NCBI RefSeq assembly: GCF_005221385.1 | Contig: NZ_CP039904.1 | Location: 1,523,501-1,587,500, forward strand | Direction: 5' to 3' | Length of the DNA stretch: 64,000 nt | Source: Agrobacterium tumefaciens | GTDB taxonomy: Bacteria > Pseudomonadota > Alphaproteobacteria > Rhizobiales > Rhizobiaceae | In this document: one piece after another, positions 11,620 through 33,411 of the stretch | Numbering within the stretch: the stretch's first letter is position 1 | Layout of the letters: the number at the start of each line of letters is the position of its first letter | Program-made: the position numbers and the translations under genes | The notes under the pieces: model-generated | Told to the model about the DNA's origin: nothing | The model's input: the letters and a program-made list of their open reading frames with translations, nothing else | Databases searched by the model: none

Positions 11620-11676
11620 ACGAAGGGTAACTCGGCCTCGAAGCAAGAGGTCATTTCAGCTACAGGAGCTTACAGC

Positions 11677-12153: not shown

Positions 12154-12161
12154 TAGCGACG

Positions 12162-12200: not shown

Positions 12201-12262
12201 ATAAAAGTTTTGAAGCTCACGTCGTGATGTTTCTCATCCACGTTGGACGAGGCGGGTTTGTC

Positions 12263-12652: not shown

Positions 12653-12663
12653 TGGGACAAGCC

Positions 12664-15248: not shown

Positions 15249-15586
15249 TGGCCGCTCATCAAGTGCAGAGCGGCGTTCATAACATAAGTGCGGTTACATC
15301 ATTGGAAATACACAGGGTTAATTGAGGAAGAACCAAATCAACCTCGAGATGCATGTGGTTGTCTTTCGCAACATCCCATTTGCATTGAACAAAGCGCGCT
15401 GATACGTCTTGAACGATCCAAGACAAGCGTTTAATTCGGCGTCATCAATTGCGATGGATGTCGTGCGCTGACAGGATTGGCGATGTCCGATCCGACACAA
15501 TCAATTCCTCCAAAATCGGGCTTGAAAACATTGAACACGTGTGCAATATGAACACGCGTTCACTCTAAGGGAAATGGTTGTTGCGC
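15249..15586. promoter_or_regulatory. Intergenic region with tandem 14-bp near-palindromes
   Basis: This 338-bp gap separates the divergent GGDEF-EAL gene and the organophosphate operon. Most of it shows no convincing gene. Its right end contains two near-palindromic copies, TGAACACGTGTGCA at 15532-15545 and TGAACACGCGTTCA at 15549-15562, 17 bp apart centre to centre, ending 24 bp before the IMPase start. Such tandem dyads are typical of repressor operators. AAGGGAA at 15568-15574 is the likely ribosome site. Confidence 0.6.
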
Positions 15587-16432
15587 ATGGACTCGATGCC
15601 TTATCCGGATACATTGACGGCTCGCGCCGAACTCTGCCGCAGCGTTATTCTTTCCGCCGGGGAACTGGTGCTGAAAGGCTTTCAGGGCGAAGCGACGCGC
15701 AGCTTTTCGATGAAGGGGCCGCAGGATTTCCTGACGGTGACGGATGCTGCCTCCGAAGCGCATATTCGCGGCGCGATCGCGGCGTGTTTTCCTGACGACA
15801 GCTTTTTCGGGGAAGAAGGCGGCGGGGAGATTGGCGAGCGCGTCTGGGTCGTGGATCCCATCGACGGAACCGCGAATTTCGCACGCGGCATTCCGCATTT
15901 CTGCATATCGATCGCTTATGTCGAAAACGGACAGACCGAGCTCGGCGCGATCTATAACCCCGCCCTTGATGAGCTTTATTTTGCCCGCCGCGGCGAGGGG
16001 GCGACGCGTAACGGCTTGCCGATCCGGGTGTCGGAGACGGAACGTTTCGATGCGGCGTCGATCGAAATGGGCTGGTCGACCCGCGTGGCGAATGACATCT
16101 ATCTCGATGTCGTCAAGAACCTGCTCGATATGGGCACCAATGTCCGCCGCGCCGGCTCCGGGGCCATGGCGCTTGCCTATGTGGCTGATGGCCGTTCCGA
16201 TGCCTATCTCGAATTGCATATGAATTCATGGGATTGTCTTGCGGGACTGCTACTCGTCAGCGAAGCTGGCGGCGATGTCTGCCCCTTCCTGGAAGTCGGT
16301 AGTCTTGAGGATGGCGGGCCGGTGCTGGCGGCAGCCGGCGGTGTTGCCAAAGGTGTCAGTGAGGCATCGAGCATACCTTTGGCCGGGCGGCAGCCGTCGG
16401 GTGGGCAGCGGGCCGCATCGGCCTTATTTTAG
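15587..16432 (+). CDS. Inositol-monophosphatase-family phosphatase (copy 1)
   Basis: 281 residues from ATG 15587 (a TTG at 15578 is possible). The Mg-dependent IMPase fold signatures are intact: GEEGG at 75-79, DPIDGT at 90-95 and WDCLAG from 215. Family members hydrolyse inositol phosphate, sugar phosphates, fructose-1,6-bisphosphate or PAP; which one is not determined here. It is the first gene of a four-gene rightward run with a protein-phosphatase-like gene, a metallophosphoesterase and a Na/Pi transporter. A paralogue occurs at 28534-29451 with the same downstream partner. It is cytoplasmic (no signal peptide). Confidence 0.88.
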   Translation: MDSMPYPDTLTARAELCRSVILSAGELVLKGFQGEATRSFSMKGPQDFLTVTDAASEAHIRGAIAACFPDDSFFGEEGGGEIGERVWVVDPIDGTANFARGIPHFCISIAYVENGQTELGAIYNPALDELYFARRGEGATRNGLPIRVSETERFDAASIEMGWSTRVANDIYLDVVKNLLDMGTNVRRAGSGAMALAYVADGRSDAYLELHMNSWDCLAGLLLVSEAGGDVCPFLEVGSLEDGGPVLAAAGGVAKGVSEASSIPLAGRQPSGGQRAASALF

Positions 16433-16481
16433 GCGAAGCTTGGTCCTTGAAAGGGCGGCTTGGTGCATGTGGAGGAATGAC

Positions 16482-17090
16482 ATGGATGGACCCGTTTATG
16501 CCCGGCCTGCAATCAGCCTGATCGCGGAAGGGCTTGGCCCGCATAATGCTGCGCTTTATATCGGCGGCAGCGATGGTGCGAGCGATCTCGGGCTCCTGCG
16601 CCGCCACAGCATTACCACCGTTGTCAATTGCGCCGTCAACCTCGATATCAATCTCGTGCAGGCAATGGCGGAAGAGGGCGACAAACGCGCTGTGGGGTAT
16701 GGTGACATCCGCTATTACAAGCTTGGCCTGATCGACGGGGAGGGCAGCCCCGACACGATGATGCTGGGGGCCTATTATATTCTTGACGGTGCGCTTCGCC
16801 AGACCATGCCGAAACGCGAGACCTATCCGTTTCCAGATGGCGGCAATGTGCTGGTCAACTGCCGCAGTGGCCGCAGCCGCTCCGTCTCGCTGGTGGCGCT
16901 TTTCCTCCATAAGCAGCAGCCGCATCTTTACCCCACCCTTGACGACGCGGTTTCCGTGATCCGCACTAGGCGGGAATTGCGGCCCGACGAATGGTTCGAG
17001 ACGCCGAAACCCATGCTTTATGCCGCCGCCCGCCGTGCTTCCGACTGGATCGACATGGTTGAAGGCAGAAAGACCGCCCAATCATGCTGA
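16482..17090 (+). CDS. Dual-specificity/PTP-like phosphatase (copy 1)
   Basis: 202 residues; ATG 16482 has GGAGG 6 bases upstream. The signature loop is NCRSGRSRS (Cys127, Arg133), that is C-X5-R, but the usual preceding His is Asn126. Asp85 in LIDGEG may be the general acid. The fold is that of cysteine phosphatases that act on phosphoproteins, phosphoinositides or, in PTP-like phytases, inositol phosphates. It follows the IMPase gene by 49 bp and its stop overlaps the metallophosphoesterase start. A close paralogue is at 29484-30110 with the same His-to-Asn change. Substrate unknown. Confidence 0.82.
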   Translation: MDGPVYARPAISLIAEGLGPHNAALYIGGSDGASDLGLLRRHSITTVVNCAVNLDINLVQAMAEEGDKRAVGYGDIRYYKLGLIDGEGSPDTMMLGAYYILDGALRQTMPKRETYPFPDGGNVLVNCRSGRSRSVSLVALFLHKQQPHLYPTLDDAVSVIRTRRELRPDEWFETPKPMLYAAARRASDWIDMVEGRKTAQSC

Positions 17091-18769
17091 CACGTGCGCT
17101 TCCCTCCGTTGCCGTCATTGCAGACGCGCATTTTCATGACACGGCCGCCGATTTCGGATTTCCGGGCATCGAGATCGATGGTGAGCGCATCACCATGCGC
17201 AGCTGGTCGGACACACGCGAATCCACCCGGGTTTTCAACGAGAGTGCCGATGCGCTGCATGCCGCACTCGAAGCGGTTCGGCAACGCGGCATCCGCCATG
17301 TCGTGCTGCTTGGCGATTATACCGATGACGGCCAGCGGGCGACCACCGAAACGCTGAAGGGCATTCTCGAGCGTCATCGTGACGCCCATGGCACCGCTTT
17401 TTATGCATTGCCCGGAAACCACGATATTTTCGGCCCGCGCGGCCGGCACCATACCAAGGAGTTCCTGACGGAAAATGGCCGATGCGTTTCTGTTTCGAGC
17501 GATGCACGGCGCGCTGGAGAGCGGGTTGTTATTAGCGACCGGATGTATTGCGAGGGCTATCCAGTGGGCCTCGGGCCCATGTCGGCTTTCGGATATTTCC
17601 GCCAGCCGGACTATATTCACTGGGAAACGCCGTTCGGCCTCTCCGACTTGGCGGAGGACCGCCTTTACGAGGTGCGCTCGCCCGATGGGCACAATGTCTA
17701 CCAGCTGATGGACGCCTCCTATCTCGTCGAGCCGGAGCCGGGTCTCTGGCTACTGATGATCGACGCCAATATTTTCGAACCGCTCGACGGTGCGTTCGAA
17801 AAAGGTGAGGAAGCGGCCTTCACCGATAGCACCTCCGGTGGCTGGAACGCGCTTTTGCGCTGCAAGCCCTTCATCATCGACTGGATTGCCGATGTGCGGC
17901 ATAGGGCAGAGGCGCTCGGCAAAACGTTGCTTGGCTTTTCCCACTATCCGGCGCTCGATCCGTTTGATGGCGCAAGCGGTGCCGAAGGTGCACTGTTTGG
18001 CGAAACCAATGTCGTGCGCCGCACGCCGCGCAAGGCGGTGGAGGATGCGTTGCGTAACGCCGGGCTTGCCATCCATTTCAGCGGGCACCTGCATGTGGAA
18101 GGTGTGACAAGGTGCGGGGACGGGGAGAATTCGCTTACCAATATCGCCGTGCCGTCGCTGGTTGCCTTTCCGCCCGCGTTCAAGGTTGTCCACCCGTCGC
18201 GGCAGGAAATCACTGTGGAGACGGTGGAGATGGATGCTCTGCCGATCAACAGCCGCATTTGCCGAGGCTATGCGCAGGAAACGGCTCTGGCTGGCGAGGA
18301 TGAGGACCAGGCGTTTGCGGCGGGCACCTACGGTGATTTTCTGCTTGGCCACAAACGGGCGCTGGTCAGGTACCGTTATTTCATCAAGGAATGGCCGGCG
18401 GAGGTTGTGGCGGCCATTGCGAATAAAACCGTGCAGGACGTTATTGGCTTGATCGGAAAAAAAGGCGGCTCCCCATCTGATGGCCTCGTGCTGGCTTCTG
18501 AACTGCCGATGTTCGAGCTGATTGCCGATTGGTATTGCCTTCGTCAGGGCGCGGGTCTTGCCCTGCCGCATATCCAGCCGGAGCGGCTTTCCCTCTATCG
18601 GGTGCTGGCGGAACGCTTCGGCCGTGAGGCGGATCGTCACGACGGTTCCGTTCAAAGCTTTATCGAAATCTTCTTCGGTGCGCTCGGCCTGTTTATAGAG
18701 CGTGCTGAAGGCAGTTCGCGTGATCTCACGCTTCAGCTCGCTCCACAATATGAGCGCGTAGCGGTTTGA
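17084..18769 (+). CDS. Calcineurin-like metallophosphoesterase
   Basis: 561 residues. The five metal-binding blocks are present: DAHFH (D14, H16), GDYTDDGQ (D78), GNHD (111-114), SHYP (H287) and GHLH (H335, H337). The last 200 residues form an extra C-terminal region of unknown role, including a stretch LPMFELIADWYCLRQGAGLALP. No signal peptide, so it acts in the cytoplasm. Relatives hydrolyse phosphodiesters such as glycerophosphodiesters and cyclic nucleotides. The ATG overlaps the previous stop by 7 bases, so the two are translated together. In context it could supply a diesterase step before the monoesterases. Confidence 0.88.
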   Translation: MLTRALPSVAVIADAHFHDTAADFGFPGIEIDGERITMRSWSDTRESTRVFNESADALHAALEAVRQRGIRHVVLLGDYTDDGQRATTETLKGILERHRDAHGTAFYALPGNHDIFGPRGRHHTKEFLTENGRCVSVSSDARRAGERVVISDRMYCEGYPVGLGPMSAFGYFRQPDYIHWETPFGLSDLAEDRLYEVRSPDGHNVYQLMDASYLVEPEPGLWLLMIDANIFEPLDGAFEKGEEAAFTDSTSGGWNALLRCKPFIIDWIADVRHRAEALGKTLLGFSHYPALDPFDGASGAEGALFGETNVVRRTPRKAVEDALRNAGLAIHFSGHLHVEGVTRCGDGENSLTNIAVPSLVAFPPAFKVVHPSRQEITVETVEMDALPINSRICRGYAQETALAGEDEDQAFAAGTYGDFLLGHKRALVRYRYFIKEWPAEVVAAIANKTVQDVIGLIGKKGGSPSDGLVLASELPMFELIADWYCLRQGAGLALPHIQPERLSLYRVLAERFGREADRHDGSVQSFIEIFFGALGLFIERAEGSSRDLTLQLAPQYERVAV

Positions 18770-18849
18770 TCTGAAGGTTTTGCAACGGGCCGCTGCATCG
18801 CAGCCCTGAGTGCAGAGCGGGCGGCAGGAACGACACGCGAGGTGATCCG

Positions 18850-20493
18850 ATGGAATCGGTCGTTGTCAGCATCAATCTGTTCGGCGCGGTGGCATTGCTG
18901 CTTTTCGGCCTTGCGCAGATTAAGGACGGCATGTCGCGCGCATTTGGCGCCAGGCTTCGCACCGGTCTTGCCGCCGGCACGCGGGGCGGATTTCGCTCCT
19001 TCTTTGCCGGTCTCGTGGCGACGATCGCCTTGCAGAGTTCGACCGCGACCGCGCTGATGGTCGCTTCCTTCGTTGAAAAAGACCTTATCGCGCCGGCCAT
19101 GGCGCAGGTTGTGCTGCTGGGGGCCAATGTTGGCACCGCGATGACAGCGTGGATTGTCGCGCTCGGGCTTGGCTGGCTGTCGCCAATGCTCATCCTTGCC
19201 GGCGTCATCCTGCTCCGCGGAAAATCGGCGCAGCGGCAGGGAGCGGGTGCGGCCCTTGCCGGTGTCGGCCTGATGCTGCTTTCCCTGCATCTTCTTTCCG
19301 CGGCGACCGATCCGATCAGACAATCTCCGGCGCTTGGTCTCTTCATTTCATTGCTTGGCAATGCCTGGCCGGTGGCGCTGATTTTCTCCGCCGTCCTGGC
19401 GGTGCTGGCTTCTTCCAGTCTTGCGATTGTCGTTCTCATCCTGTCGCTCGCGGCAAGTGGCGGCATCGAAACGAGCTTAATCATCGTGCTGGTTCTCGGC
19501 GCCAATCTCGGCGGCGCGGTTCCGCCGGTGCTGGCAACGCTGAAAGCGCCGATTGCGGCGCGGCGGGTGACTGTCGGCAACCTCATCGTCAGGGCCATCG
19601 GCTGTCTTCTGGCCCTGCCTCTTGCCGGTTACGGTGCGGCGCTTCTGGATATGTCACCCTTTTCGCACGCCAATCTCGCTGTTGATGCGCATCTTTTCTT
19701 CAATCTGGCTGTTGCCGCCATCGCATGGCCGCTCTCGCCGCTGCTTTTGCGGGTAACGAAGGCAATGCTGCCGGAAAAAGAGGGGAGCGAAAGCAGCCGC
19801 AGCTATCTCGACAGTCACGATCTCGACCAGCCGGTCGCAGCACTTGCTGGTGCGAGCCGCGAGGTGCTGCTGGTCGGCGACCTGATCGAGCGCATGCTAC
19901 GGCAGGCAAGCGAAGCGATGCGCGATAGCGACGTGACGAAACTCAACGATATCAGCATGCTGGAAGGCCGGGTCGACCGTATCCAGCATGACATCAAGGT
20001 CTATGTCTCCAAGGTCGGGCAGGATGGGCTTTGCCGCAAAGACCAGCGCCGCGCGATGGATATCGTCGAATATGCCATCAATCTCGAACATATCGGCGAT
20101 ATCATCGAGAAAGGCATCCGTCCGGAAATCGCCAAGAAGATCGATCTTGGCCTGCAGTTTTCCGCTGACGGCAAGAGTGAGCTGGAGCGTCTTTTCGCCG
20201 TCACACTCGACAATATCCGCATGGCGCAATCGGTTTTCGCGACCCGCAATGCCGATCTTGCCCGGCGGCTGGTGGAAGTGAAGGAAGATGTGCGGCGCCT
20301 CGAAAAACAGTCTTCGGAACGCCACCTGCAACGCCTGCGCGATGGCCGGGCCGACAGCATCCAGACCAGCTCCGTGCATCTGGATATGTTGCGCGATCTC
20401 AAACGCATCAACGCCCATATCGCCGCCGTCGCCCATCCGATCCTTGATGAAAGCGGCCTCCTGATCGAAAGCCGCATCAAGCAGGCGGGTTAG
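18850..20493 (+). CDS. Na/Pi cotransporter-family protein with PhoU-like C-terminal domain
   Basis: 547 residues. Residues 1-310 hold about eight membrane segments in two Na_Pi_cotrans repeats; the first carries the diagnostic ALQSSTATALMV, and the second has the degenerate ASSSLAIVVLIL. Residues about 330-540 are a cytoplasmic helical PhoU-like domain. The E. coli relative YjbB exports phosphate, so release of Pi freed from organophosphates is a reasonable role, but direction cannot be read from sequence. GAGGTGAT precedes the start. The stop overlaps the stop of the convergent LacI gene by 3 bases. Confidence 0.88.
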   Translation: MESVVVSINLFGAVALLLFGLAQIKDGMSRAFGARLRTGLAAGTRGGFRSFFAGLVATIALQSSTATALMVASFVEKDLIAPAMAQVVLLGANVGTAMTAWIVALGLGWLSPMLILAGVILLRGKSAQRQGAGAALAGVGLMLLSLHLLSAATDPIRQSPALGLFISLLGNAWPVALIFSAVLAVLASSSLAIVVLILSLAASGGIETSLIIVLVLGANLGGAVPPVLATLKAPIAARRVTVGNLIVRAIGCLLALPLAGYGAALLDMSPFSHANLAVDAHLFFNLAVAAIAWPLSPLLLRVTKAMLPEKEGSESSRSYLDSHDLDQPVAALAGASREVLLVGDLIERMLRQASEAMRDSDVTKLNDISMLEGRVDRIQHDIKVYVSKVGQDGLCRKDQRRAMDIVEYAINLEHIGDIIEKGIRPEIAKKIDLGLQFSADGKSELERLFAVTLDNIRMAQSVFATRNADLARRLVEVKEDVRRLEKQSSERHLQRLRDGRADSIQTSSVHLDMLRDLKRINAHIAAVAHPILDESGLLIESRIKQAG

Positions 20494-21476
20494 CGCGCGG
20501 TGATGCGCTCGACCATGGAAACGGGCACGACCTGAAGCCGGGTTTCCGGCAGGTCGCTGTCAAGCGCAGTCAGGACTTTCTCTGTCAACGCGTCGAAGGA
20601 TTGAGCAACGGTGGTCAGCTGATAGCTTTTCCAGCCAGCCTGTGGAATATCATCGAAACCGACGATCGAGAGATCTTCCGGCACCCGGCGACCCATTTCC
20701 AGACGTGCGGCGTCCATAAAACCGAGCGCCAGCAGATCGGTCACGCAGAAAGCGCCATCGATCGCCTTGTCGGCCAGCAATTCGCAGCCGGCCTGATAAC
20801 CGCTGTCATAACTTGTCGGACCGCCGGACCAGGCAACGACCTCGATGCCTTCTATGGTCATGCGCTGGGTGAAGGCGCCGGCGCGGCGCAGCTGCGCCGG
20901 GGTCTGGCTGCCGCTGGAAATGACCGCGACCTTCCGGCATTTGGCCGCCACGAGCCGCATGGCGGCAAGGTCGGCACCGTGGGAATCGTCGCTCAGCACC
21001 ATATTGGTATCGGTGCGGTCGAGACGCTGGTTGATGAGGATGAGGCGCACGCCATTGGCAATGCATTCGTCGACGATCGAAGCCGGCGGTTCACCAGAGA
21101 GAACGACGATTGCCTGGGCGCGGAACTCGAAAAGAAGCTCGATCAGCGGTGCGATGTCCTTGCGCGCATCCGCCGCATTCAAGAGCAGGCATTGCAGGCC
21201 GCGACGCAGAAGGCCGATGCTGAGCAGATCGAGCTGCTTTGAAATAAAGGGCGAACTCAGGTTGGCGCCGACGACACCGATGAGGTTGGAGCGATCATTA
21301 TTAAGGCCCTGCGCCAGACGATTGACGCGATAGCCAAGTTCCTGCGCGGCTTTCAGCACTTTGCGCCGCACCACCTTCGAAACGCTGCCGCCGGGAGTGA
21401 AGGTGCGCGAGACGGCGGAGCGCGAGACCCCGGCCTTTTTTGCCACCTCTTCGGCTGTCACGAACCCTCTCGCCAT
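20490..21476 (-). CDS. LacI-family transcriptional regulator (organophosphate locus)
   Basis: 328 residues. The N-terminal helix-turn-helix reads VTAEEVAKKAGVSRSAVSRTFTPGGSV, followed by the hinge (LAQGLNNDRSNLIG) and a periplasmic-binding-protein-like sensor domain. It sits between the Na/Pi transporter and a divergent ABC importer, so it probably controls one or both. The shared promoter gap holds two copies of AAAAGACGTTTT in opposite orientation, one overlapping a TTGACA -35 element of the importer operon. The likely effector is the imported compound or a sugar/polyol phosphate derived from it; this is inference. Confidence 0.92.
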   Translation of the reverse strand: MARGFVTAEEVAKKAGVSRSAVSRTFTPGGSVSKVVRRKVLKAAQELGYRVNRLAQGLNNDRSNLIGVVGANLSSPFISKQLDLLSIGLLRRGLQCLLLNAADARKDIAPLIELLFEFRAQAIVVLSGEPPASIVDECIANGVRLILINQRLDRTDTNMVLSDDSHGADLAAMRLVAAKCRKVAVISSGSQTPAQLRRAGAFTQRMTIEGIEVVAWSGGPTSYDSGYQAGCELLADKAIDGAFCVTDLLALGFMDAARLEMGRRVPEDLSIVGFDDIPQAGWKSYQLTTVAQSFDALTEKVLTALDSDLPETRLQVVPVSMVERITAR

Positions 21477-21993
21477 TCAACTTCCCCGGTTGCGAAATCC
21501 TAAGCCTGATATCACAGGCGATGTGGCGTCGGCTATTCCTATCGAAATTTTTCGACTGCCTGCCGCTGCGCTGGAGCAGGATGACCTGGCATATCCCGGT
21601 GAAACGTCTCATTCGTTCCATTGTCGTCGCGCCGGGAAAAACATTCCGCTGAATAGCGCACTCAAAAAATTACAGTTTTGTGACAAAAAGACGTTTTAAA
21701 ACAAATAAATAAGATAGTGATCACGTGTGCATTTTTTCGTTGACAAAACGTCTTTTAAGACGGATCATGCATTCCAAGGTGAAGTGAGTTATGGAATTTT
21801 TATTCCACTTCCGCTTTGCCGGCGATGTTTTCGGGAGGAGCTGGGATCATCGTTGTGGGCGGGTTGGAAGCCCGCTTCTGAAGCATTGATGCATTGTTGA
21901 AGGTCACGCACGCGCCGTCTGTTTTTCAGGCTGCGCGAAGGCAGGTGCTTGCCGGCGTGTCGGGGCAATGGTGTGGCCATACGGGGAGAGATA
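21477..21993. promoter_or_regulatory. Divergent LacI/ABC promoter, paired operator-like sites and long leader
   Basis: A 517-bp gap. AAAAGACGTTTT occurs at 21686-21697 and its reverse complement at 21745-21756; the second merges into CGTCTT-TT-AAGACG (21749-21762). TTGACA at 21740-21745 with a weak GATCAT 17 bases on is a candidate promoter that the second site would occlude. The remaining leader of about 215 bases contains a GGAAT/ATTCC hairpin and a possible short leader ORF. GGGGAGAG precedes the permease ATG at 21994. Confidence 0.6.
21791..21889 (+). CDS. Possible 32-residue leader peptide
   Basis: A short frame begins MEFLFHFRFAGDVF and ends LLKH before TGA at 21887-21889. AAGGTGAAG lies about 7 bases before the ATG, better than chance, and the frame lies wholly in the leader of the ABC importer operon. 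The first codons overlap an inverted repeat (GGAAT TTTT ATTCC). Nothing in the peptide resembles a known attenuator, so it may simply be fortuitous. Confidence 0.22.
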   Translation: MEFLFHFRFAGDVFGRSWDHRCGRVGSPLLKH

Positions 21994-23847
21994 ATGGCTC
22001 TTTTAAGCGAATCAACGAAGGCGGAGGCATTGGGGCGTCCCCCTGCGACCGCGCCTTCGGCATGGCAGGCCTGGCGATATCGCCTCAAGGTCGCGCTCCG
22101 GGAGCCGACGACGCTGATCGGCGTTCTGACAGCCCTGCTTTTTACCTATCTGATCGTCGTTCCGATCATTTCGATCATTCTCGACGCTGTCCGCGTCCAG
22201 TTTGGCCATGAAAGGCGCCTTGGCAAGGATGTTGGCGACCTCACGCTTTATTATCTCGACAGGGCGTTTTTCTCGCCTGTCGCGACTGACCTCTTCTGGC
22301 GGCCGCTCTTTAACACGCTGACAGTGGCTTTCGGGGCGATTTCGCTTTCGCTGGTCATCGGCACCGTGCTTGCCTGGCTTATCAGCCGCACGGATATGTT
22401 CGGTCGGCGCTGGTTCGCCACCGCGCTGATTGTGCCTTATATGCTGCCGGCCTGGACCTTTGCGCTGGCCTGGACGACCCTGTTCAAGAACCGCACCGTG
22501 GGCGGCCAGCCCGGCTGGTTTGAGGCAATCGGCCTGACGCCGCCGGACTGGGTTGCATATGGGCGTTTCCCGATCACCATCATCCTTGCGCTGCATTATA
22601 CGCCTTTCGTCATCCTGCTGTTCGGCTCGGCGCTTCGCCGTTTCGATTCGCAGCTTGAAGATTCCGCGCGTATTCTCGGTGCACACCGCTATCAGGTGGC
22701 CTTGCAGGTCATCATGCCGCTGATGCGCCCGGCGCTGTTGTCTTCCATGGTGCTGATCTTTGCGAAGTGCCTCGGTGAATTCGGCGTACCCTATGTTCTC
22801 GGGCTGCCCGTGAAGTTCGAAGTCCTGTCCACTTCGCTGTTTCGCAGCATCGCCTCGCGCCAGACCGGTGTTGCCGGTGTCGTTGCGGCCTCGATCATGC
22901 TCATCGGTATCATCACGCTGATGATCGATGCGCGCCTCGTTCGCGAAGCGCGCCGGTTCGTGACCATCGGTTCGAAAGGCTCGATGAACCGGCAAAACCG
23001 CCTCGGCAAGATGCGGCTTCCGGCAACCGGCTTTGCGGCCGCCATCTTCATCCTCAGCGTCGGCCTGCCGCTTCTGACGCTGGCGCTCTCGACCATCATG
23101 AAAATGCCGGCCAAATTCACGCTCGACAACTTCACGCTCGATTACTGGATTGGCACCAACCTCAATACCGTGGCCTTGCAGACCGGCGTTCTTTTGAGCC
23201 CCGATCTATGGGCGGCGGCGAAAAACACGATGATGATCGTCGGGCTTGCCTCGCTGACATCAGGCGTTCTCGGTCTCCTGGTCGGTTATGTTGTCATCCG
23301 CACGCCGGTGCGCGCCCTGTCGGTCTATTTGCGACAGGTAACGTTCCTGCCCTATCTCGTGCCTGGCATCGCTTTTGCCGCCGCTTATCTGTCGCTCTTT
23401 GCCGTTCCGCGCGGGCCGATGCCGGCGCTCTATGGCACGGTGACGATCCTTATCCTGGCGCTGATTGCCGACCAGATGCCCTATGCCTCACGCGCCGGCA
23501 TCTCGGCCATGACGCAGCTTGGAAAGGACCCGGAAGAGGCGGCGCAGATTGCCGGCGCTGGCTGGTTCCGCCGCATGATCTCCATTGTGATCCCGATCCA
23601 GAAGGGATCGCTGGTGACCGGGGTTCTCCTGCCCTTCATTTCGGGCATCAAGGGCTTGAGCCTCTTCGTCATCCTCGCCGTGCCGAGCACGGACGTGCTG
23701 ACCACCTATTCGCTGCGGCTGGTCGATTACCACTACACGCAGGCCGCCAACGCCGTGGTGCTGATCATCGCCGGCATCGCCTATTTCGGCACGCTGCTGG
23801 CCCAGAAACTGACCCGCACAAATCTTGCAGAAGGACTTGGAAGCTGA
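21994..23847 (+). CDS. Fbp-type ABC importer permease, two fused membrane domains
   Basis: 617 residues with about 12 membrane segments in two homologous halves, the layout of SfuB/FbpB-type ferric iron permeases and their organophosphate or phosphonate relatives. Each half carries an EAA-like loop: EDSARILGAHRYQVALQVIMPLM in the first and EEAAQIAGAGWFRRMISIVIP in the second. ATG 21994 has GGGGAGAG 3-4 bases upstream, preferred over an earlier in-frame ATG. The stop overlaps the ATPase start (TGATG). It forms the channel for the three binding proteins encoded downstream. Confidence 0.9.
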   Translation: MALLSESTKAEALGRPPATAPSAWQAWRYRLKVALREPTTLIGVLTALLFTYLIVVPIISIILDAVRVQFGHERRLGKDVGDLTLYYLDRAFFSPVATDLFWRPLFNTLTVAFGAISLSLVIGTVLAWLISRTDMFGRRWFATALIVPYMLPAWTFALAWTTLFKNRTVGGQPGWFEAIGLTPPDWVAYGRFPITIILALHYTPFVILLFGSALRRFDSQLEDSARILGAHRYQVALQVIMPLMRPALLSSMVLIFAKCLGEFGVPYVLGLPVKFEVLSTSLFRSIASRQTGVAGVVAASIMLIGIITLMIDARLVREARRFVTIGSKGSMNRQNRLGKMRLPATGFAAAIFILSVGLPLLTLALSTIMKMPAKFTLDNFTLDYWIGTNLNTVALQTGVLLSPDLWAAAKNTMMIVGLASLTSGVLGLLVGYVVIRTPVRALSVYLRQVTFLPYLVPGIAFAAAYLSLFAVPRGPMPALYGTVTILILALIADQMPYASRAGISAMTQLGKDPEEAAQIAGAGWFRRMISIVIPIQKGSLVTGVLLPFISGIKGLSLFVILAVPSTDVLTTYSLRLVDYHYTQAANAVVLIIAGIAYFGTLLAQKLTRTNLAEGLGS

Positions 23848-24980
23848 TGCCTACCATCAACCTGCGCGGTGCGCAGAAAAACTACGGTGTAAATTCCGCA
23901 AATGCGGTTTCCGATCTCGATCTCGAAATCCGCGACGGCGAATTCATGTGCCTGCTCGGCCCTTCCGGCTGCGGCAAAACCACGACGCTGCGGATGATCG
24001 CCGGCCTTGAAAACCTCTCCGGCGGGGAAATCCGCGTCGGCGACCGGGTAATCGATTCCGTTACCGATGGCATCTTCGTGCCGCCGGAAAAGCGTGAAAT
24101 GGGCCTCGTCTTCCAGAGCTACGCGCTGTGGCCGCACCTGACGATCGAGCGCAACACGGATTTCGGCCTGCGCCTGCGCAAGCTGCCTAAGGCCGAGCGC
24201 GAAGCCCGTGTCGAACGCGTCATGCAGGCGCTCGACATCGCCAAATATCGCGATCGTTATCCGTCGCAGCTTTCCGGTGGGCAGCAGCAGCGCGTGGCGC
24301 TTGCCCGTATGCTTGCTGTCAATCCCGGCGTTCTGCTTCTGGACGAGCCGCTCTCCAATCTGGATGCGCGGCTGCGGCTGGAAATGCGCGCCGAACTGAA
24401 GCGGCTGCACAAAGAGTTCAAGACCACCATCGTCTTCGTGACGCATGACCAGTGGGAAGCCATGACGCTTGCCACCACCATTGCCGTCATGAACGAGGGC
24501 ACGCTGCAGCAGATGGGCACGCCCAACGACATTTACGACCGCCCGGCCAACCGCTTCGTTGCCGAATTCGTTGGCAGCCCGCCGATCAATATCCTGACCT
24601 TCGGCCAGCCCGGCGTTTCTGATGTTGCCGACAAGGGGGAAGCCTATTTTGCGGCGCGTTATCCGCAACTGCGCGGCATTGCCTCGGTTGGCATGCGACC
24701 GGAGGCGATGGGTTACGTGATGAAGCCGGAAGATGTGCCGCAGGGCAGCTTCTCCGGTGAAATGACGGTGACGGGCGTGCTGCCGACCGGCGGCAGCTGG
24801 ATTCTTGAGCTGAGAAGCGAAAACCACACGCTGTTCCTGACCACCCATTCCCTGCCGCGTATCGACAGCGGCGACCGCGTGTTTTTCCACGTACCGCCGG
24901 AGGCCCTGCACGCTTTCGATGCAAAGGGGCAGCGGGTCACCGAGGCGGACGCCGTTCTACGCAACAGCACCTACAACTGA
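23847..24980 (+). CDS. ABC importer ATPase (organophosphate-locus transporter)
   Basis: 377 residues. Walker A GPSGCGKTT (about 38-46), the Q-loop in VFQSYALWPHLT, signature LSGGQQQRVALARM, Walker B VLLLDEPLSNLDA and the H-loop THDQWEAM are all intact. The C-terminal 130 residues form a TOBE-type domain. It energises the upstream fused permease. The ATG lies inside the permease stop, giving coupling. The set resembles FbpC/PotA-like ATPases; substrate cannot be told from this subunit. Confidence 0.93.
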   Translation: MPTINLRGAQKNYGVNSANAVSDLDLEIRDGEFMCLLGPSGCGKTTTLRMIAGLENLSGGEIRVGDRVIDSVTDGIFVPPEKREMGLVFQSYALWPHLTIERNTDFGLRLRKLPKAEREARVERVMQALDIAKYRDRYPSQLSGGQQQRVALARMLAVNPGVLLLDEPLSNLDARLRLEMRAELKRLHKEFKTTIVFVTHDQWEAMTLATTIAVMNEGTLQQMGTPNDIYDRPANRFVAEFVGSPPINILTFGQPGVSDVADKGEAYFAARYPQLRGIASVGMRPEAMGYVMKPEDVPQGSFSGEMTVTGVLPTGGSWILELRSENHTLFLTTHSLPRIDSGDRVFFHVPPEALHAFDAKGQRVTEADAVLRNSTYN

Positions 24981-25014
24981 AAACGCCGGCAAAAACGGCT
25001 GAAGGAGAAACAGT

Positions 25015-26139
25015 ATGAAGCGGACAAAGACGGGTTTGAGCCGGCTGTTATGTGCAACGGCAATTGTCGCAACGTTTGGCGGCGCGGCGAAGGCCGAAGA
25101 GCCGTTCGACCTCAATGCCCTGATCGAGGCGGCAAAAAAGGAAAAACCGATCACCGTTTATGACAGCACCGGCAAGATCGTCGAAATGGCGAAGAACTTC
25201 GCCGCGAAATATGGCGTGGGTGCCGAGGGTGCGAAGGTCAAGGCCTCGGCCCAGCTGGAGATGATCATCCGCGAGGCGCGCGCCAACAATATTCAGGGCG
25301 ACGTTTCGATCATCAGCGATGCGCCGGCGGCGATGGCTCAGCTTATTCCTATGGGTTTTGTCGAAAGCTGGCTGCCGCCGGATATGGCCGGCAATATTCC
25401 GCCGGAATATCAGGATCCGCTTACCGTCGTCACCAGCGCCAATGTCTGGGCCTATAATAGCGAGCTTTTCGACAAATGCCCCGTTTCCAATATCTGGGAA
25501 CTGACCGACCCGAAGTGGAAGGGCAAGGTGGCGATGCAGGATCCGCTCGGCAAGGCATCCTATGTCGACTGGTTCAACCAGATGGCCAAGCACGGCGATG
25601 GCGAGGTGAAGGCGGCCTACAAGGCGCTCTACGGCAAGGATCTCGAAACCGCAGAGACGAGCGCGACCGCAGCCTGGGTAAAGGCGCTTGCCGCCAACGC
25701 CCCGCTTCTGACCGATGCCGATGCCGCGGCCGCTGAAGCCGTGGGTTCGCCCGGCCAGAAGGACGCGTTCATGGGCCTTATCAGCTCGGCCAAGTTCCGT
25801 GACAACGCCGAAAAGGGCATGAAACTCGGCCTCTGCAAGGAACTGAAGCCGTGGGCCGGCTGGCTTTATCCGGGCGTCGGCCTGATTACCAAGGGCACTA
25901 ACAGCCCGAACGCGGCGAAGCTCTTCATTCATTACATCATGACCGCTGAAGGCATCGCGCCGCAGGCGATCGACGGCAAGATGTCGACGAACAAGGAGGT
26001 GAGCCTGCCTGCCGACGAGCCTTCGGGTATCGGCGCGGTTCTCGATGATATTCTGCCTTACAGCATGGCCACCAGCCTAGACGACTGGGATGCGCGCGAA
26101 ACCTGGCAGGACTTCTGGCGTGTGAACTACAAAAAATAA
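25015..26139 (+). CDS. Periplasmic solute-binding protein, Fbp-like (paralogue 1)
   Basis: 374 residues with a signal peptide (MKRTKTGLSRLLCATAIVAT, cleavage near AKA-EEPFD). AAGGAG lies 8 bases before the ATG. It is a class of extracellular solute-binding protein related to iron(III)/phosphonate binders. Two cysteines in DKCPVSNIW and LGLCKEL are conserved in the two paralogues downstream and may form a disulfide. The C-terminus WQDFWRVNYKK is almost identical in all three. It is the first of three tandem copies behind a single permease and ATPase. Confidence 0.9.
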   Translation: MKRTKTGLSRLLCATAIVATFGGAAKAEEPFDLNALIEAAKKEKPITVYDSTGKIVEMAKNFAAKYGVGAEGAKVKASAQLEMIIREARANNIQGDVSIISDAPAAMAQLIPMGFVESWLPPDMAGNIPPEYQDPLTVVTSANVWAYNSELFDKCPVSNIWELTDPKWKGKVAMQDPLGKASYVDWFNQMAKHGDGEVKAAYKALYGKDLETAETSATAAWVKALAANAPLLTDADAAAAEAVGSPGQKDAFMGLISSAKFRDNAEKGMKLGLCKELKPWAGWLYPGVGLITKGTNSPNAAKLFIHYIMTAEGIAPQAIDGKMSTNKEVSLPADEPSGIGAVLDDILPYSMATSLDDWDARETWQDFWRVNYKK

Positions 26140-26164
26140 CGGGGGGACCGACGCAGTGACTACA

Positions 26165-27304
26165 ATGAAGCAGAACCGATATGGTGGGCAGCGCGGGCGG
26201 CGAATGGCCGCCTCCGCGCTCTCCCTCATCTTCTCGCTGGCAGTTGGCGCTGCCGCGCATGCGCAGGACGCTTTTAATCTCGATGCGCTGATCGATGCCG
26301 CGAAGAAGGAAAAGCCGATCACCGTTTATGCGGTGACCGGCAAGATCGTCGATACGGCGCTGGCCTTCACCGCCAAATACGGCGTGCAGGCCAGCGGCAA
26401 GAAGGTGAACGAGGCGACGCAGGTTGAGCTGATGATCCGCGAGCATCGGGCCGGCAATGTTGTCGGCGATGTCAGCGTCGCAACGGATGTCGCCTCCGCC
26501 ATGGGTGAGCTTCTGCCGGAAGGCATCGCCACCAGTTGGTCGCCGCCGGATATGGAAGGCGATATTCCGCAAAAGCTGCGCGATCCGCTCGTGGTCGTCT
26601 CGGACCCGCATGTGTGGACCTACAATACCGAGAAATACGGCACATGCCCGGTCACCAACATCTGGCAGCTGACGGAGCCGAAGTGGAAGGGCAAGCTTGC
26701 CATGCTCGATCTCTTCGACAAGCCGCTTTATGCCGACTGGTTCAACCAGATCGAAACCCACCACGATGCCGATGTCGCCAGGGCCTATGAGGACCTCTAC
26801 GGCAAGAAGCTGGAAACGGGCGAAAAAAGCGCAACCGCGGCCTGGGTGAAGGCCTTTGCCGAAAATGCGCCTTTGCTGACGGATTCGAGTTCGGTTGCGG
26901 ATGCGGCCGGTGCGCCGGGGCAGGCCGATCCGTTTTTTGTCATCACCTCGGTGGCGAAATATCGTGACAACGAGGCCAAGGGGCTGAAGCTCGGGCTTTG
27001 CAGCGGCGTAAAGCCCTTTTCCGGATTTCTCTATCCCGGTTTCGGCCTGATTGCCGGGCAGACGAAAAGCCCGAATGCGGCAAAGCTCTTCCTGCATTAC
27101 CTGATGACGCAAGAGGGTATCGCACCCCAGACCGCCGATGGCAAACTCTCCGGCAATACGAAAATCGCCCTGCCGACGGATGAGCCCTCGAAGGTCGCCG
27201 ATCATCTCGATGAGCTGATGGCGTTCGATGCCGCAACGGCGGCCGACGACCTCGACAAGCGCGAAGGCTGGCAGGATTTCTGGCGTGTGAACTACAAAAA
27301 ATAA
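26165..27304 (+). CDS. Periplasmic solute-binding protein, Fbp-like (paralogue 2)
   Basis: 379 residues from ATG 26165; a GTG at 26156 is possible. The signal peptide includes GRRMAASALSLIFSLAVG with cleavage near AHA-QDAFN. It shares KKEKPITVY, GTCPVTNIWQL, LGLCSGVKPF and WQDFWRVNYKK with its neighbours. The divergence is largest in the central region (EHRAGNVVGDVSVATDV), which suggests altered ligand specificity rather than simple duplication. It begins 25 bp after paralogue 1. Confidence 0.9.
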   Translation: MKQNRYGGQRGRRMAASALSLIFSLAVGAAAHAQDAFNLDALIDAAKKEKPITVYAVTGKIVDTALAFTAKYGVQASGKKVNEATQVELMIREHRAGNVVGDVSVATDVASAMGELLPEGIATSWSPPDMEGDIPQKLRDPLVVVSDPHVWTYNTEKYGTCPVTNIWQLTEPKWKGKLAMLDLFDKPLYADWFNQIETHHDADVARAYEDLYGKKLETGEKSATAAWVKAFAENAPLLTDSSSVADAAGAPGQADPFFVITSVAKYRDNEAKGLKLGLCSGVKPFSGFLYPGFGLIAGQTKSPNAAKLFLHYLMTQEGIAPQTADGKLSGNTKIALPTDEPSKVADHLDELMAFDAATAADDLDKREGWQDFWRVNYKK

Positions 27305-27309
27305 ACGGA

Positions 27310-27334
27310 AGGCGGGTGCCAAGCCCGCCTGTCT
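27310..27334 (+). terminator. Hairpin between binding-protein paralogues 2 and 3
   Basis: A 7-bp stem AGGCGGG / CCCGCCT with a 7-base loop is followed by GTCTTTTCC, six bases after the stop of paralogue 2. It is terminator-like but short, so partial termination or message protection is more likely than a full stop. Confidence 0.5.
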
Positions 27335-27354
27335 TTTCCTTGGGAGGGGAAACG

Positions 27355-28470
27355 ATGAAAAGAACGAATTTGAGAACGGCGTCAGTCATTGCTGCGGCAA
27401 TGATCGGACTGTCTGCCATGACTGCTGTGGCCGAAGAGGCATTCGATCTGGATACGATCCTGGCGGCGGCGAAGCAGGAAAAGCCGATCAATATCTATGA
27501 CAGCACCGGCAAGATCGTCGAAATGGCCGAGAAGTTCAGCGCCAAATACGGGCTGAAGGCAACGGGTGTAAAGGTTTCCGCCAATAGCCAGCTGGAGATG
27601 ATCATCCGCGAAAGCCAGTCCGGCAACGTGCAGGGTGATGTGGTGCTGATCACCGATGCGCCATCGGCTCTCGCGCAGCTTCTGCCGGCGGGTTTTGTCG
27701 AGAACTACCTGCCAGGCGACATGGCGGCGAAAATCCCGGCGCAGTTTCAGAACCCGCTGGCAATTTCCACCAACGCCAATGTCTGGGCCTATAATACCGA
27801 AGCCCATGACAAATGCCCGGTGGGCAATATCTGGGAACTGACCGAGCCGCAATGGAAAGGCAAGGTCGCCATGGTCGATCCCTTGAGCAAGAGCACATAT
27901 ACGGACTGGTTCAACCAGCTCGAAGCCCATGGAAATCAGAAGGTGGCGGCAGCCTACAAGGCCCATTTCGGCAAGGAGATAGAGGAAAAGGGCGCGTCGG
28001 CCGCATGGATCAAGGCAATGGCTGCAAACGGCCCGCTTGCCACCGAAGGTGATGACCCGGTGGCGGAAGCTGTCGGTGCGCCCGGCCAGAAACAGCCTTT
28101 CTTCGGCCTCATCAGTTCGGCGAAGTTTCGCGACAATGCCGACAAGGGTTACAAGCTCGGCCTCTGCACGGGCCTCGATCCATGGGTCGGCTGGACCTAC
28201 ATCAAGCTTGGGTTGATCGCCTCCAGGACCAAGAGCCCGAACATGGCGAAGCTCTTCATCCATTACGTCCTGACGGAAGAGGGCATCGCCCCGCAGATGA
28301 AGGACGGCAAGCTGCCGACCAATATCGACATCAAGATGCCGGCTGACGAACCCTCGGGGCTTATGAAGGTCGCCGACAGGCTGATGGGATATGATTCCGC
28401 CACCGGCCTTGATGACTTCGACCGACGGGAGGAATGGCAGGACGTCTGGCGCGTCAACTACAGGAAATAA
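27355..28470 (+). CDS. Periplasmic solute-binding protein, Fbp-like (paralogue 3)
   Basis: 371 residues. ATG 27355 has TGGGAGGGG about 6 bases upstream and begins a signal peptide (MKRTNLRTASVIAAAMIGL, cleavage near AVA-EEAFD). It is closer to paralogue 1 than to paralogue 2 across YDSTGKIVEMAEKFSAKYG. The conserved cysteines occur in DKCPVGNIW and LGLCTGLDPW. The end, WQDVWRVNYRK, matches the other copies. Three binding proteins with one channel imply uptake of several related ligands, or backups with different affinity. Confidence 0.9.
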   Translation: MKRTNLRTASVIAAAMIGLSAMTAVAEEAFDLDTILAAAKQEKPINIYDSTGKIVEMAEKFSAKYGLKATGVKVSANSQLEMIIRESQSGNVQGDVVLITDAPSALAQLLPAGFVENYLPGDMAAKIPAQFQNPLAISTNANVWAYNTEAHDKCPVGNIWELTEPQWKGKVAMVDPLSKSTYTDWFNQLEAHGNQKVAAAYKAHFGKEIEEKGASAAWIKAMAANGPLATEGDDPVAEAVGAPGQKQPFFGLISSAKFRDNADKGYKLGLCTGLDPWVGWTYIKLGLIASRTKSPNMAKLFIHYVLTEEGIAPQMKDGKLPTNIDIKMPADEPSGLMKVADRLMGYDSATGLDDFDRREEWQDVWRVNYRK

Positions 28471-28477
28471 TCCCGGC

Positions 28478-28516
28478 CGGCGCGGCTCAGGCCGCGCCGC
28501 CGCCTCCTTCTTTTTT
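28478..28516 (+). terminator. Terminator-like hairpin after the third binding protein
   Basis: A 9-bp stem CGGCGCGGC / GCCGCGCCG with a TCAG loop (28478-28499) is followed 10 bases later by TTCTTTTTT. It starts 7 bases after the stop of the third binding-protein gene and precedes the second IMPase gene. It would reduce but not necessarily end transcription into the phosphatase pair. Confidence 0.6.
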
Positions 28517-28533
28517 GAACGAACAGACTGGAT

Positions 28534-29451
28534 ATGCCAATGCACACCTCATCTTCAACCGAGCGAAAATCTGGAAATGAGGAGGCGCTTTCCCGCTCGA
28601 TGCGGCTGATGAAAATCGCCGAGACGGCGGCGCGTGCCGTGCGCGATCCGCTGCTTTCGGCGTTCCGCTCGGAAATGGCGGTGGACTATAAAGTCGATCT
28701 CCACGACATCGTCACCATTCATGACAGGCGTGCTGAAGCCGCCATTCGTGCCGTCATTCTAGCAAGCGAACCTAATTCAGCGATTATGGGCGAAGAAGGC
28801 GGCCAGATCGGCAGCGGCGAGGTGCAATGGTATGTCGATCCGATCGACGGCACTGCGAATTTCGCCCGTGGCCTTGCCTTCTGGTGCGTGTCGATTGCCG
28901 CCGTCATTGACGGCGAGGCCGTTGCCGGCGTGGTCTATGATCCCGTGGCGGAGCAGATGTTTTCCGCCAACCTTGAAGCTTCCTATCTGGACGGAGACAA
29001 GCTGCGCTCCCGCAGTGTTGCAGACGAGACCCGGGCGACCTTGATCACCGGTTATCCTGTCTCGCGTGATTTCCGGCTGGATGGGCGGGAAGCGGCGCTC
29101 GCCAATTTCGGCGCTCTTGTCGAGACCTTCTCGACATTGCGCCGGCCTGGCAGCGCCGCGCTCAGCATCGCCCATGTTGCGGCGGGCTGGACGGATGCGG
29201 CCGCTGGTTTTGGCGTTAATGCCTGGGATGTGGCGGCAGCCATTCTTATCCTCAAGAATGCGGGCGGAACCTATGAACCGCTCACCCTCGGAAAGGTGGC
29301 GCAGGGTTCCGCAGATTTCCTCTGCCCCGGTTATATCGCCACGGGCAAGGGGGCGAATTACCCGACATTGCAGAGAGTGGCGCGATCCATATCCGCAGAC
29401 CGCATCGCAAAGGCGGCAGCGCAGCATAGCCAGCCGGCCACAAAGGCCTGA
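28534..29451 (+). CDS. Inositol-monophosphatase-family phosphatase (copy 2)
   Basis: 305 residues from ATG 28534 (28540 is also possible). IMPase motifs: MGEEGG, DPIDGTANFARG and NAWDVAAA. The third motif reads WDVAAA where copy 1 has WDCLAG. Shared features with copy 1 include the run DPIDGTANFARG-(I/L), supporting common origin. The C-terminal tail of about 30 residues is extra. It follows the ABC importer genes and precedes a PTP-like gene, repeating the order of 15587-17090. Likely a cytoplasmic phosphomonoesterase acting on the product of imported substrate; specificity unknown. Confidence 0.87.
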   Translation: MPMHTSSSTERKSGNEEALSRSMRLMKIAETAARAVRDPLLSAFRSEMAVDYKVDLHDIVTIHDRRAEAAIRAVILASEPNSAIMGEEGGQIGSGEVQWYVDPIDGTANFARGLAFWCVSIAAVIDGEAVAGVVYDPVAEQMFSANLEASYLDGDKLRSRSVADETRATLITGYPVSRDFRLDGREAALANFGALVETFSTLRRPGSAALSIAHVAAGWTDAAAGFGVNAWDVAAAILILKNAGGTYEPLTLGKVAQGSADFLCPGYIATGKGANYPTLQRVARSISADRIAKAAAQHSQPATKA

Positions 29452-29483
29452 AGACGTAATATCGGCACCGACGGAGACATGAC

Positions 29484-30110
29484 ATGCCACAACCGGAAAA
29501 AATCCAATCCCCAGAGCAGGACTCCGGCGAATTGCCGAAACTCAGCCGCATCTATGAGCGGCATCCGCTTTATGGCGTCGATCTGTTCATTTCGGGTAAG
29601 GAGGGCGCAAGCGACCTCAACCTTCTGCGTGAGAACGGCATCACAACCGTCGTCAATTGCGCCGTCAATCTCGATTTCAATTTTGTGGAGCAGCCGCAAA
29701 TCGTTTCCGATCATGAGGGCAGCGTCTATGGGCCGGGCGAAATCCGCTATTACAAGATCGGCCTGATCGATGGCGCCGGAAACCCCGATACACAGATGGT
29801 TGCTGCCCACTACATTCTGCGGGCGGCGCTGGAGCAGATATTGCCCGACAAGCCGTCCTATCCCCGGCGGGAGCGCGGCAGCGTGCTCATCAATTGCCGG
29901 GGAGGGCGTTCGCGTTCCGTCGCCGTCGTTGCGCTCTTTCTGCACCTGACGCTGCCGGTGGAATTTCCGACGCTCGATGATGCGATCAGCTTCGTTCGCG
30001 TAAAGCGTGAACTGCCGGAAAACGAATGGTTCAAGGCGCCAAAACCCGTGCTTGCGGATGCTGCCCGCCGTGCCGCCGGCTGGATCTCGATGATCGACGC
30101 CGCGCACTAA
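29484..30110 (+). CDS. Dual-specificity/PTP-like phosphatase (copy 2)
   Basis: 208 residues. The loop reads INCRGGRSRS, again C-X5-R with Asn in place of His before the Cys. Shared blocks with copy 1 include ASDLNLLRENGITTVVNCAVNLD, FNFV versus INLV, RYYKIGLIDG and ELPENEWFKAPKP. An ATG preceded by GGAGACAT starts the gene 32 bp after copy 2 of the IMPase. It is the last gene of the organophosphate locus and ends before a pair of hairpins separating it from the convergent TerC-type gene. Confidence 0.82.
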   Translation: MPQPEKIQSPEQDSGELPKLSRIYERHPLYGVDLFISGKEGASDLNLLRENGITTVVNCAVNLDFNFVEQPQIVSDHEGSVYGPGEIRYYKIGLIDGAGNPDTQMVAAHYILRAALEQILPDKPSYPRRERGSVLINCRGGRSRSVAVVALFLHLTLPVEFPTLDDAISFVRVKRELPENEWFKAPKPVLADAARRAAGWISMIDAAH

Positions 30111-33181: not shown

Positions 33182-33411
33182 GCAACGTTCTCTGTAACGT
33201 GGATTTATCGTGGGTGTCGGTCTTTCTTAGGCAGGCCATCCATGCATGGCAAGTTTGCCACCGCTCACATTCCCGTTGTTGGCCACTGCGAAGGGTGTCG
33301 CACGACCCGGCGGTAGCAGGCGCGCCAATTTTCCGGATCGTTAAAAGTCGAGTGGTTTGTTTCATTTGAACTCAAACCGGCAGCGATAGGTCATGTCATC
33401 AGGAGATGAAC

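Follow-up and report, generated by a model that had tools for sequence, protein, structure and literature searches.

What would a bacterium import through an ATP-binding cassette (ABC) transporter of the Fbp type whose genes lie among phosphatase genes and a LacI-family regulator? The question is raised by a block at positions 15587–30110 of a 64,000-nucleotide stretch of Agrobacterium tumefaciens DNA (the window), which corresponds to positions 1523501–1587500 of one replicon in a 5.5-Mb genome. Gene content and comparison with related loci support an organophosphate uptake and breakdown module. More specifically, the block is predicted from sequence to be a LacI-controlled inositol-phosphate utilization module (probability about 0.6). 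Imported inositol phosphates would be dephosphorylated in the cytosol by a Cys-based dual-specificity-type phosphatase (DSP) and an inositol monophosphatase-family enzyme (IMPase), the resulting myo-inositol would enter the iol pathway, and inorganic phosphate (Pi) would perhaps be exported.

The block was annotated from the list of open reading frames (ORFs) and from Pfam and NCBIfam profile searches, and all the gene families named for it in a first-pass annotation were present:

15587–16432, + strand: IMPase 1, SuhB-like inositol monophosphatase family (PF00459, 203 bits, 6.4e-60; SuhB/IMPase structures with E down to 2e-44)
16482–17090, + strand: DSP 1, Cys-based dual-specificity-type phosphatase, VHR-like, with a CX5R motif (DSPc, 33.1 bits)
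17084–18769, + strand: MPE, calcineurin-type phosphoesterase with a helical C-terminal part (PF00149)
18850–20493, + strand: Na/Pi carrier with a PhoU-like C-terminal domain (PF02690 and PF01895; TIGR01013 over its cut-off)
20490–21476, − strand: LacI-family regulator (PF00356 and PF13377; below every NCBIfam equivalog cut-off)
21994–23847, + strand: ABC permease with two fused transmembrane domains, Fbp/PhnU2-like (PF00528, two stretches)
23844–24980, + strand: ABC ATPase (PF00005, 1.3e-33)
25015–26139, + strand: binding protein 1
26156–27304, + strand: binding protein 2 (56% identity to binding protein 1)
27316–28470, + strand: binding protein 3 (61% identity to binding protein 1; translation may in fact begin at the ATG at 27355)
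28534–29451, + strand: IMPase 2 (PF00459, 163 bits, 1.4e-47)
29484–30110, + strand: DSP 2, Cys-based dual-specificity-type phosphatase (DSPc, 32.1 bits, 1.2e-7; C138, R144 and D96 invariant in 6/6)

Both DSPs fall slightly below the Pfam cut-off for DSPc (33.5 bits). The genes first described as protein tyrosine phosphatase (PTP)-like do encode Cys-based phosphatases, and the assignment can be refined to the VHR-like dual-specificity type, since the nearest solved structures are VHR/DUSP3. They carry the Cys-X5-Arg loop and acid Asp of VHR-like phosphatases. Among relatives at loci L030–L109 (defined below), the loop reads [NH]CR[GS]GRSRS in 80 of 82 and NCRAGRSRS in the remaining two, and the acid-loop pattern occurs in 72 of 82. 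The IMPases exceed the PF00459 cut-off and have the metal-site motifs of their family, with GEE in 97/97 and DP[IL]DGTxNF in 83/97 of the IMPases from the same loci.

Whether these genes belong together was addressed by their conservation. A DSP search of GTDB genomes gave 174 relatives; the best 80 were taken as loci L030–L109, and module genes were sought within 10-kb flanks at a limit of 60 bits. At these best 80 loci, matches were found to LacI (77), IMPase (77), the binding protein (76), the permease (76) and the ATPase (78), the last two counts including some generic ABC paralogues, and to the Na/Pi carrier (52) and MPE (42). Most MPE misses (L030–L050, L052–L056 and L062) have the gene order of the window, in which MPE is expected past the 10-kb flank; other gaps are at contig edges (L037, L087 and L100). 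When neighboring ORFs at 94 loci were clustered, eight module families recurred in 55 to 81 loci and the next cluster in 12. One further ORF cluster is added in seven loci (five Aminobacter or Mesorhizobium, with Microvirga and Bosea), and its single scanned member is a phosphatase of the haloacid dehalogenase type.

Four gene arrangements were found. The first is the window's own: IMPase 1, DSP 1, MPE, Na/Pi carrier, LacI (reverse strand), permease, ATPase, binding proteins 1–3, IMPase 2 and DSP 2. The second (Aminobacter, Devosia and Martelella) runs permease-ATPase-binding proteins-IMPase 2-IMPase 1-DSP-MPE-LacI, often with the Na/Pi carrier. The third runs LacI-IMPase-permease-binding protein-ATPase-DSP-MPE-Na/Pi and uses another ABC subfamily (L016, L019, L086, L089, L090 and L102). 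The fourth is a compact permease-ATPase-binding protein-IMPase-DSP-LacI arrangement in gammaproteobacteria and a few alphaproteobacteria (L114 and L142). Relatives have one to three binding proteins per module. Because order varies while content stays, a joint function is suggested. From these comparisons, the importer, IMPase, DSP and LacI thus appear strongly co-conserved in alphaproteobacteria and gammaproteobacteria alike, across several gene orders. Absence of such co-conservation had been set beforehand as the outcome that would count against the first-pass annotation; the genome survey found the phosphatase and transporter genes together, with exceptions that are weighed below.

The module is patchily distributed and is also carried on plasmids. 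Close relatives of the window proteins (93–100% identity) occur in 'Rhizobium rhizogenes' GBBC3284 and A. tumefaciens UMA610 (L030, L031, L088 and L105), and the locus is present on pSymB of Sinorhizobium meliloti 1021, where it encodes two binding proteins (L110, 20275–22549). Carriers are root-nodule and soil bacteria, plus marine and gut relatives. In an order survey of 297 genomes, 12 had the DSP (E 1e-15), eight the permease (E 1e-100) and five both; the DSP was found in 6/398 genomes of a phylum survey, in 6/390 genomes of the order of Marinomonas and, remote matches included, in 89/72,556 plasmid records. Seven order-survey genomes (L120–L126) combine a remote DSP (30–44%) with LacI and another Fbp-like ABC importer and have no IMPase match; this sister system may apply a like strategy to a different phosphate ester. 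On a Paracoccus plasmid resembling these loci (L116, 1968–7429), a hydrolase of the metallo-beta-lactamase (MBL) fold is located between the permease and the DSP.

A second line of evidence for a single system comes from the promoters, where the following features were found:

15532–15545 and 15549–15562, no strand: two LacI-type operators just 5′ of IMPase 1, TGNNCACGYGNNCA
21718–21731, no strand: LacI-type operator in the divergent LacI/permease promoter, TGNNCACGYGNNCA
21740–21768, + strand: putative sigma-70-type promoter of the importer operon (TTGACA-17-GATCAT consensus match)

Within the 64 kb the palindrome occurs only at 15532, 15549 and 21718 (5 hits on both strands vs 0.51 expected; 0/100 shuffles). 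The copy at 21718 ends 8 bases ahead of the TTGACA-17-GATCAT match; such sigma-70-type sites are not in excess in the region (3 vs 4.6 expected). With one position relaxed, the operator (TGNNCRCGYGNNCA) was present in 45/45 LacI/permease intergenic regions of L030–L109 (34/34 after removal of near-duplicates) and in 13/15 regions preceding IMPase 1, for which the window order and the LacI-IMPase order were pooled. The reversed pattern was found in none of these regions, and dinucleotide-shuffle rates were 0.004 (LacI/permease) and 0.000 (pre-IMPase 1). S. meliloti 1021 has the exact operator at both places (L110, 10692 and 16955). Loci ordered LacI-IMPase-permease have a similar site directly ahead of IMPase (L086, L089 and L090), and a site upstream of LacI itself in one of four cases. 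The shared operator ties together the two halves of the block (15587–20493 and 21994–30110), which from this pattern looks like one regulon under LacI. Genome-wide, a degenerate operator was not enriched in the window's genome (14 hits vs 18 for the reversed control), so no further regulon members are claimed. Separately, the region 21680–21760 holds another inverted motif, AAAAGACGTTTT / AAAACGTCTTTT, which lies on both sides of the LacI operator and overlaps the promoter; it may be the site of another regulator.

The promoters also bear on the idea that the block is a phosphonate or simple Pi-starvation scavenging locus belonging to the PhoB regulon. The permease and ATPase are distantly like PhnU2/PhnT2, an aminoethylphosphonate locus adjoins the module in Vibrio, and one Pho-box-like site with two mismatches is found at 21670–21686. 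However, Pho-box-like sites are not in excess in the window (41 vs 34 expected, reached by 13/100 shuffles), both promoters have the LacI operator, the Pfam scan found no C-P cleaving gene in the block, and the NCBIfam equivalog scores for PhnU2 (permease, 139 vs 593 bits) and PhnT2 (ATPase, 326 vs 458 bits) are below cut-off. A PhoB or phosphonate locus is therefore hardly credible.

Indications of substrate come from genes beside the module in gammaproteobacteria, where a histidine phosphatase adjoins 9 of 14 modules in three genera (Klebsiella, Vibrio and Vreelandella/Halomonas). On a Klebsiella pneumoniae plasmid, a KdgM-type porin and a histidine phosphatase precede the module, and a second, related Klebsiella plasmid is arranged alike; the nearest solved structure to the enzyme is the Klebsiella 3-phytase 2wnh (E 8e-82). 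The neighbors on a Vibrio plasmid are a porin and a MINPP-type enzyme (nearest 6rxd, E 5e-70). In each of the six Vreelandella/Halomonas loci, LacI is followed by matches to a porin and a MINPP-like protein; His_Phos_2 was found in all five loci in which the MINPP-like ORF was scanned, and the match in L085 has no long ORF in the ORF list. One Vreelandella/Halomonas enzyme shares 29% identity with that of Vibrio. Catalytic motifs are RHGVR and HDS in Klebsiella, and RHGxR and HAE in Vibrio and the single Vreelandella protein checked (L095). With 3-phytase-like enzymes in Klebsiella and MINPP-like enzymes elsewhere, this one importer appears to have acquired partners from two phytase classes, depending on the genus.

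Three further observations bear on the substrate. In Klebsiella, IMPase and DSP are fused in one protein of 479 residues (L111, 8161–9600), so the two probably share a substrate or catalyze successive steps. A K. aerogenes locus (LR134122; L146, 8618–13149) lines up genes for LacI, IMPase, a transporter of the GlpT/UhpC type that is annotated in three pieces, and a 3-phytase precursor. Like the module, it clusters a regulator, IMPase, organophosphate carrier and phytase; it differs in that a major facilitator superfamily carrier of the GlpT/PgtP/UhpC kind replaces the ABC importer, and no DSP, MPE or Na/Pi carrier match was found in 25 kb. In four Marinomonas genomes a DSP paralogue, which in L140 matches the Vibrio DSP at 65%, is located between FucP and an iolCDEBG cluster, the iol genes being named by NCBIfam in L140 and by tblastn in the remaining three. 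This proximity is no more than suggestive of a link between DSP and inositol use. As proof it was downgraded; the gene is convergent to iol and has FucP on its other side. The window's genome encodes IolB (334.6 bits). Inositol phosphates, which were among the substrates first proposed, thus gain support from the phytase- and MINPP-like neighbors and from the IMPase-DSP fusion; the ligand itself is a prediction.

A core of diester import followed by diester cleavage, as in the first-pass annotation, was not supported. MPE gave no match in 14/14 gammaproteobacterial modules examined (within the flanks covered), nor did the Na/Pi carrier in the same 14, and the compact alphaproteobacterial modules L114 and L142 also have no MPE match; diester cleavage was therefore rejected as the core step. 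In a family survey, MPE occurred in 14/151 genomes at 15 places, five inside a module and 10 elsewhere. Given these other contexts and the lack of a match in the gammaproteobacterial modules, MPE seems to be an added component in many of the alphaproteobacterial ones. Import of a sugar or glycerol phosphodiester that MPE cuts before IMPase and DSP remove the phosphate is accordingly improbable as an account of the whole block. It does draw on the fold of MPE, which in structure comparison resembles the phosphodiesterases Lmo2642, Rv0805 and GpdQ, and on the position of MPE in the same predicted operon under the same operator. Against it stand the missing gammaproteobacterial matches and the company kept by paralogues: seven of the 10 non-module places (L018, L020–L023, L026 and L027) adjoin a large ABC exporter, six of them with a cyclic nucleotide monophosphate (cNMP)-binding-type protein. 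Some of these loci also have an MBL protein and a glycosyltransferase (one member per cluster was scanned), and together they form a separate conserved neighborhood. As a clue to substrate, the exporter and cNMP-type contexts gave no help.

The importer itself has the composition of an AfuABC-type system, one operon encoding the permease, the ATPase and binding proteins of the Fbp-like type II kind. AfuABC of Actinobacillus and Citrobacter is a hexose-phosphate importer, and AfuA, which binds glucose-6-phosphate (G6P), was long annotated as part of iron transport (PMC4546632); P5PA binds pyridoxal-5′-phosphate (PMC8427247). Fbp-type importers can thus carry phosphate esters. Structure comparison places the binding proteins of the block in the fold common to AfuA, P5PA and VcA0625. 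Identity to AfuA is ~21% in the structural alignment. AfuA recognizes the sugar through His205-Asp206-Glu229 and the phosphate through Ser37/Thr150; sequence alignments to AfuA leave the second lobe uncovered, and reading pocket residues off them was dropped for that reason. Close binding proteins from L030–L109 conserve TGK (153/153) and AK[FYLM]R (152/153), motifs that may or may not belong to the pocket.

Several observations weigh against inositol phosphates as the substrate, and two of them bring rivals with them. First, the structure search that identified 2wnh also returned glucose-1-phosphatase (1e-38), so the enzyme branch of the Klebsiella neighbor includes glucose-1-phosphatases. 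The block could then be an AfuABC variant with phosphatases, importing another phosphorylated sugar or polyol (a hexose phosphate or sugar bisphosphate) on which IMPase and DSP act as broad sugar phosphatases. The G6P binders AfuA and VcA0625 share the binding-protein fold, AfuA is the top single-sequence PDB match to the binding protein (E 1.6e-5), and LacI regulators mostly sense sugars. Yet users of AfuABC would route G6P straight into metabolism, with phosphatases unneeded, the two neighbors that were searched against the PDB resemble 3-phytase and MINPP more than Agp, and the close binding proteins carry the TGK and AK[FYLM]R motifs. Another sugar phosphate is accordingly regarded as an unlikely substrate that still deserves some weight.

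Second, the nearest solved folds to the binding proteins are MctA (Mg-citrate), FutA and FbpA (iron), above or tied with AfuA. Ferric binding of the FbpA type uses a Tyr-Tyr dyad in the second lobe; a pattern count, made without alignment, found YY within residues 151–330 of just 6/153 close binding proteins of L030–L109. Ferric iron uptake by an FbpABC system is not favored, as the pattern was not found in the other 147. Inositol phosphates are strong chelators, and a metal chelate of an inositol phosphate (or other organophosphate) might be carried, metal and ligand entering together. The same 147/153 count, a LacI rather than Fur-type regulator, and the phosphatases inherited alongside the importer make such a chelate route quite improbable.

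The remaining difficulties are the following. No histidine-phosphatase match lies beside five gammaproteobacterial modules (Marinomonas L141, L151, L152 and L153, and L154). Over 101 loci searched the enzyme was found in only eight (six Vreelandella/Halomonas, L111 and L112), none alphaproteobacterial; this search of the flanks did not extend to beta-propeller phytases. The window's genome has no match at E 0.001 to PF00328, PF02333 or PF14566 (histidine-type, beta-propeller and PTP-like phytases). IMPase-family enzymes accept many substrates, and the window IMPases are below all NCBIfam equivalog cut-offs. The Marinomonas DSP paralogue, with FucP on one side, is convergent to iol, and in L140 a small ORF separates them. 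The exact operator was not found in compact modules L111, L112, L114, L141 and L142, whose regulator would thus read another site. Two Agrobacterium loci have kept parts of the module alone (IMPase/DSP/MPE/LacI in L096 and DSP/MPE/LacI in L107). Three order-survey genomes have the permease without the DSP (L117, L118 and L119, the last with an IMPase at 38%); in L117 and L118 these close permease relatives have neither DSP nor IMPase, and in L117 the permease adjoins a two-component system and a phosphonate-binding-type protein. As a separate observation, the flanks of L096 and L107 have no permease, Na/Pi carrier or binding-protein match, as if these had been deleted.

Taken with these points, an inositol-phosphate module is still the favored explanation, and it can be laid out as a pathway whose ligand and enzyme order are predictions. 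The binding proteins would capture inositol phosphates freed from phytate, by the same cell's phytase in some gammaproteobacteria and by other organisms or enzymes in rhizobia. For S. meliloti, a phosphate-stress paper notes SMc00620 as a probable phytase-type phosphodiesterase (PMC8829014), so rhizobia may have inositol phosphates from a separate source. Import through the Fbp-type ABC transporter would leave the phosphates attached; in the cytosol the DSP, acting by a cysteine-phosphate mechanism, would strip phosphates until the Mg-dependent IMPase takes off the last one, leaving myo-inositol for the iol pathway. Many alphaproteobacterial versions add a second IMPase and DSP, the phosphodiesterase-like MPE, perhaps for glycerophospho-inositol or a cyclic inositol phosphate, and the Na/Pi carrier, which probably releases surplus Pi, outward flow being the presumed direction. 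LacI is expected to hold both promoters repressed until a presumed inducer arrives.

How far does this resemble known systems? Agrocinopine catabolism (acc) uses another ABC family and a phosphodiesterase of the glycerophosphodiester phosphodiesterase (GDPD) type. A Pfam scan of 10 window proteins, which did not include binding proteins 2 and 3, gave no family of the GDPD type, MPE being calcineurin-type, and no T-DNA or effector source of substrate is seen for the block. The agrocinopine parallel drawn in the first-pass annotation stands in its logic, that a phosphorylated sugar compound is imported and then meets phosphoesterases, and goes no further. The xanthosan system XanT/XanP shares this logic, whereas XanT is a TonB-type transporter and XanP a 2H phosphodiesterase (PMC12807533). 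AfuABC and P5PA are alike in the Fbp-like type II binding protein, permease and ATPase and in importing an intact phosphate monoester; what sets the block apart is that it has three binding proteins and a double permease fused in one chain, and that phosphatases, LacI and a Na/Pi carrier are inherited with the importer. Bacterial phytases (AppA/PhyK, MINPP, beta-propeller and PTP-like) would share its substrate class if inositol phosphates are correct, and PTP-like phytases also use a Cys-based phosphatase. The DSPs of the block are VHR-like instead, PF14566 being unmatched in the window's genome, and the module phosphatases are expected to work on imported substrate inside the cytosol.

Bacterial phytate use is usually pictured as dephosphorylation by phytases outside the cell, with free inositol then taken up. 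The module may constitute a second, intracellular arm, carried by S. meliloti 1021 as well as by mobile plasmids, in which inositol polyphosphates from InsP2 upward, perhaps chelated to metal, are imported intact through an Fbp-type ABC transporter and a VHR-like phosphatase and IMPase act in the cytosol under one LacI repressor; this fuller version is given slightly less than an even chance. The component families are already known, and what would be new is their combination, in which an importer of inositol phosphates has its own cytosolic pair of DSP and IMPase. No description of the locus or of such an importer was among the results listed by searches of the open-licence literature, which leaves most subscription journals outside, and the accessible parts of PMC12712290 and PMC12838507 do not describe the locus.

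Elsewhere in the window, Type VI secretion genes lie at 8920–13164: one for an ATPase that looks like ClpV, one for Hcp (PF05638), and a Rap1a-type immunity gene (PF18602) followed by the gene for a Tae4 amidase effector (PF14113). At 32168–34080, a DUF1402 protein adjoins a bacterial transglutaminase-like cysteine proteinase (PF06035).

Because the locus is present in S. meliloti 1021, the prediction is testable in a model symbiont. If true, bacteria that, like the window's host, lack a phytase of the three families searched could live on the products of phytase-makers. It would also explain a cluster that is partly annotated as an 'iron ABC transporter' and would give bacterial VHR-like phosphatases a metabolic role.

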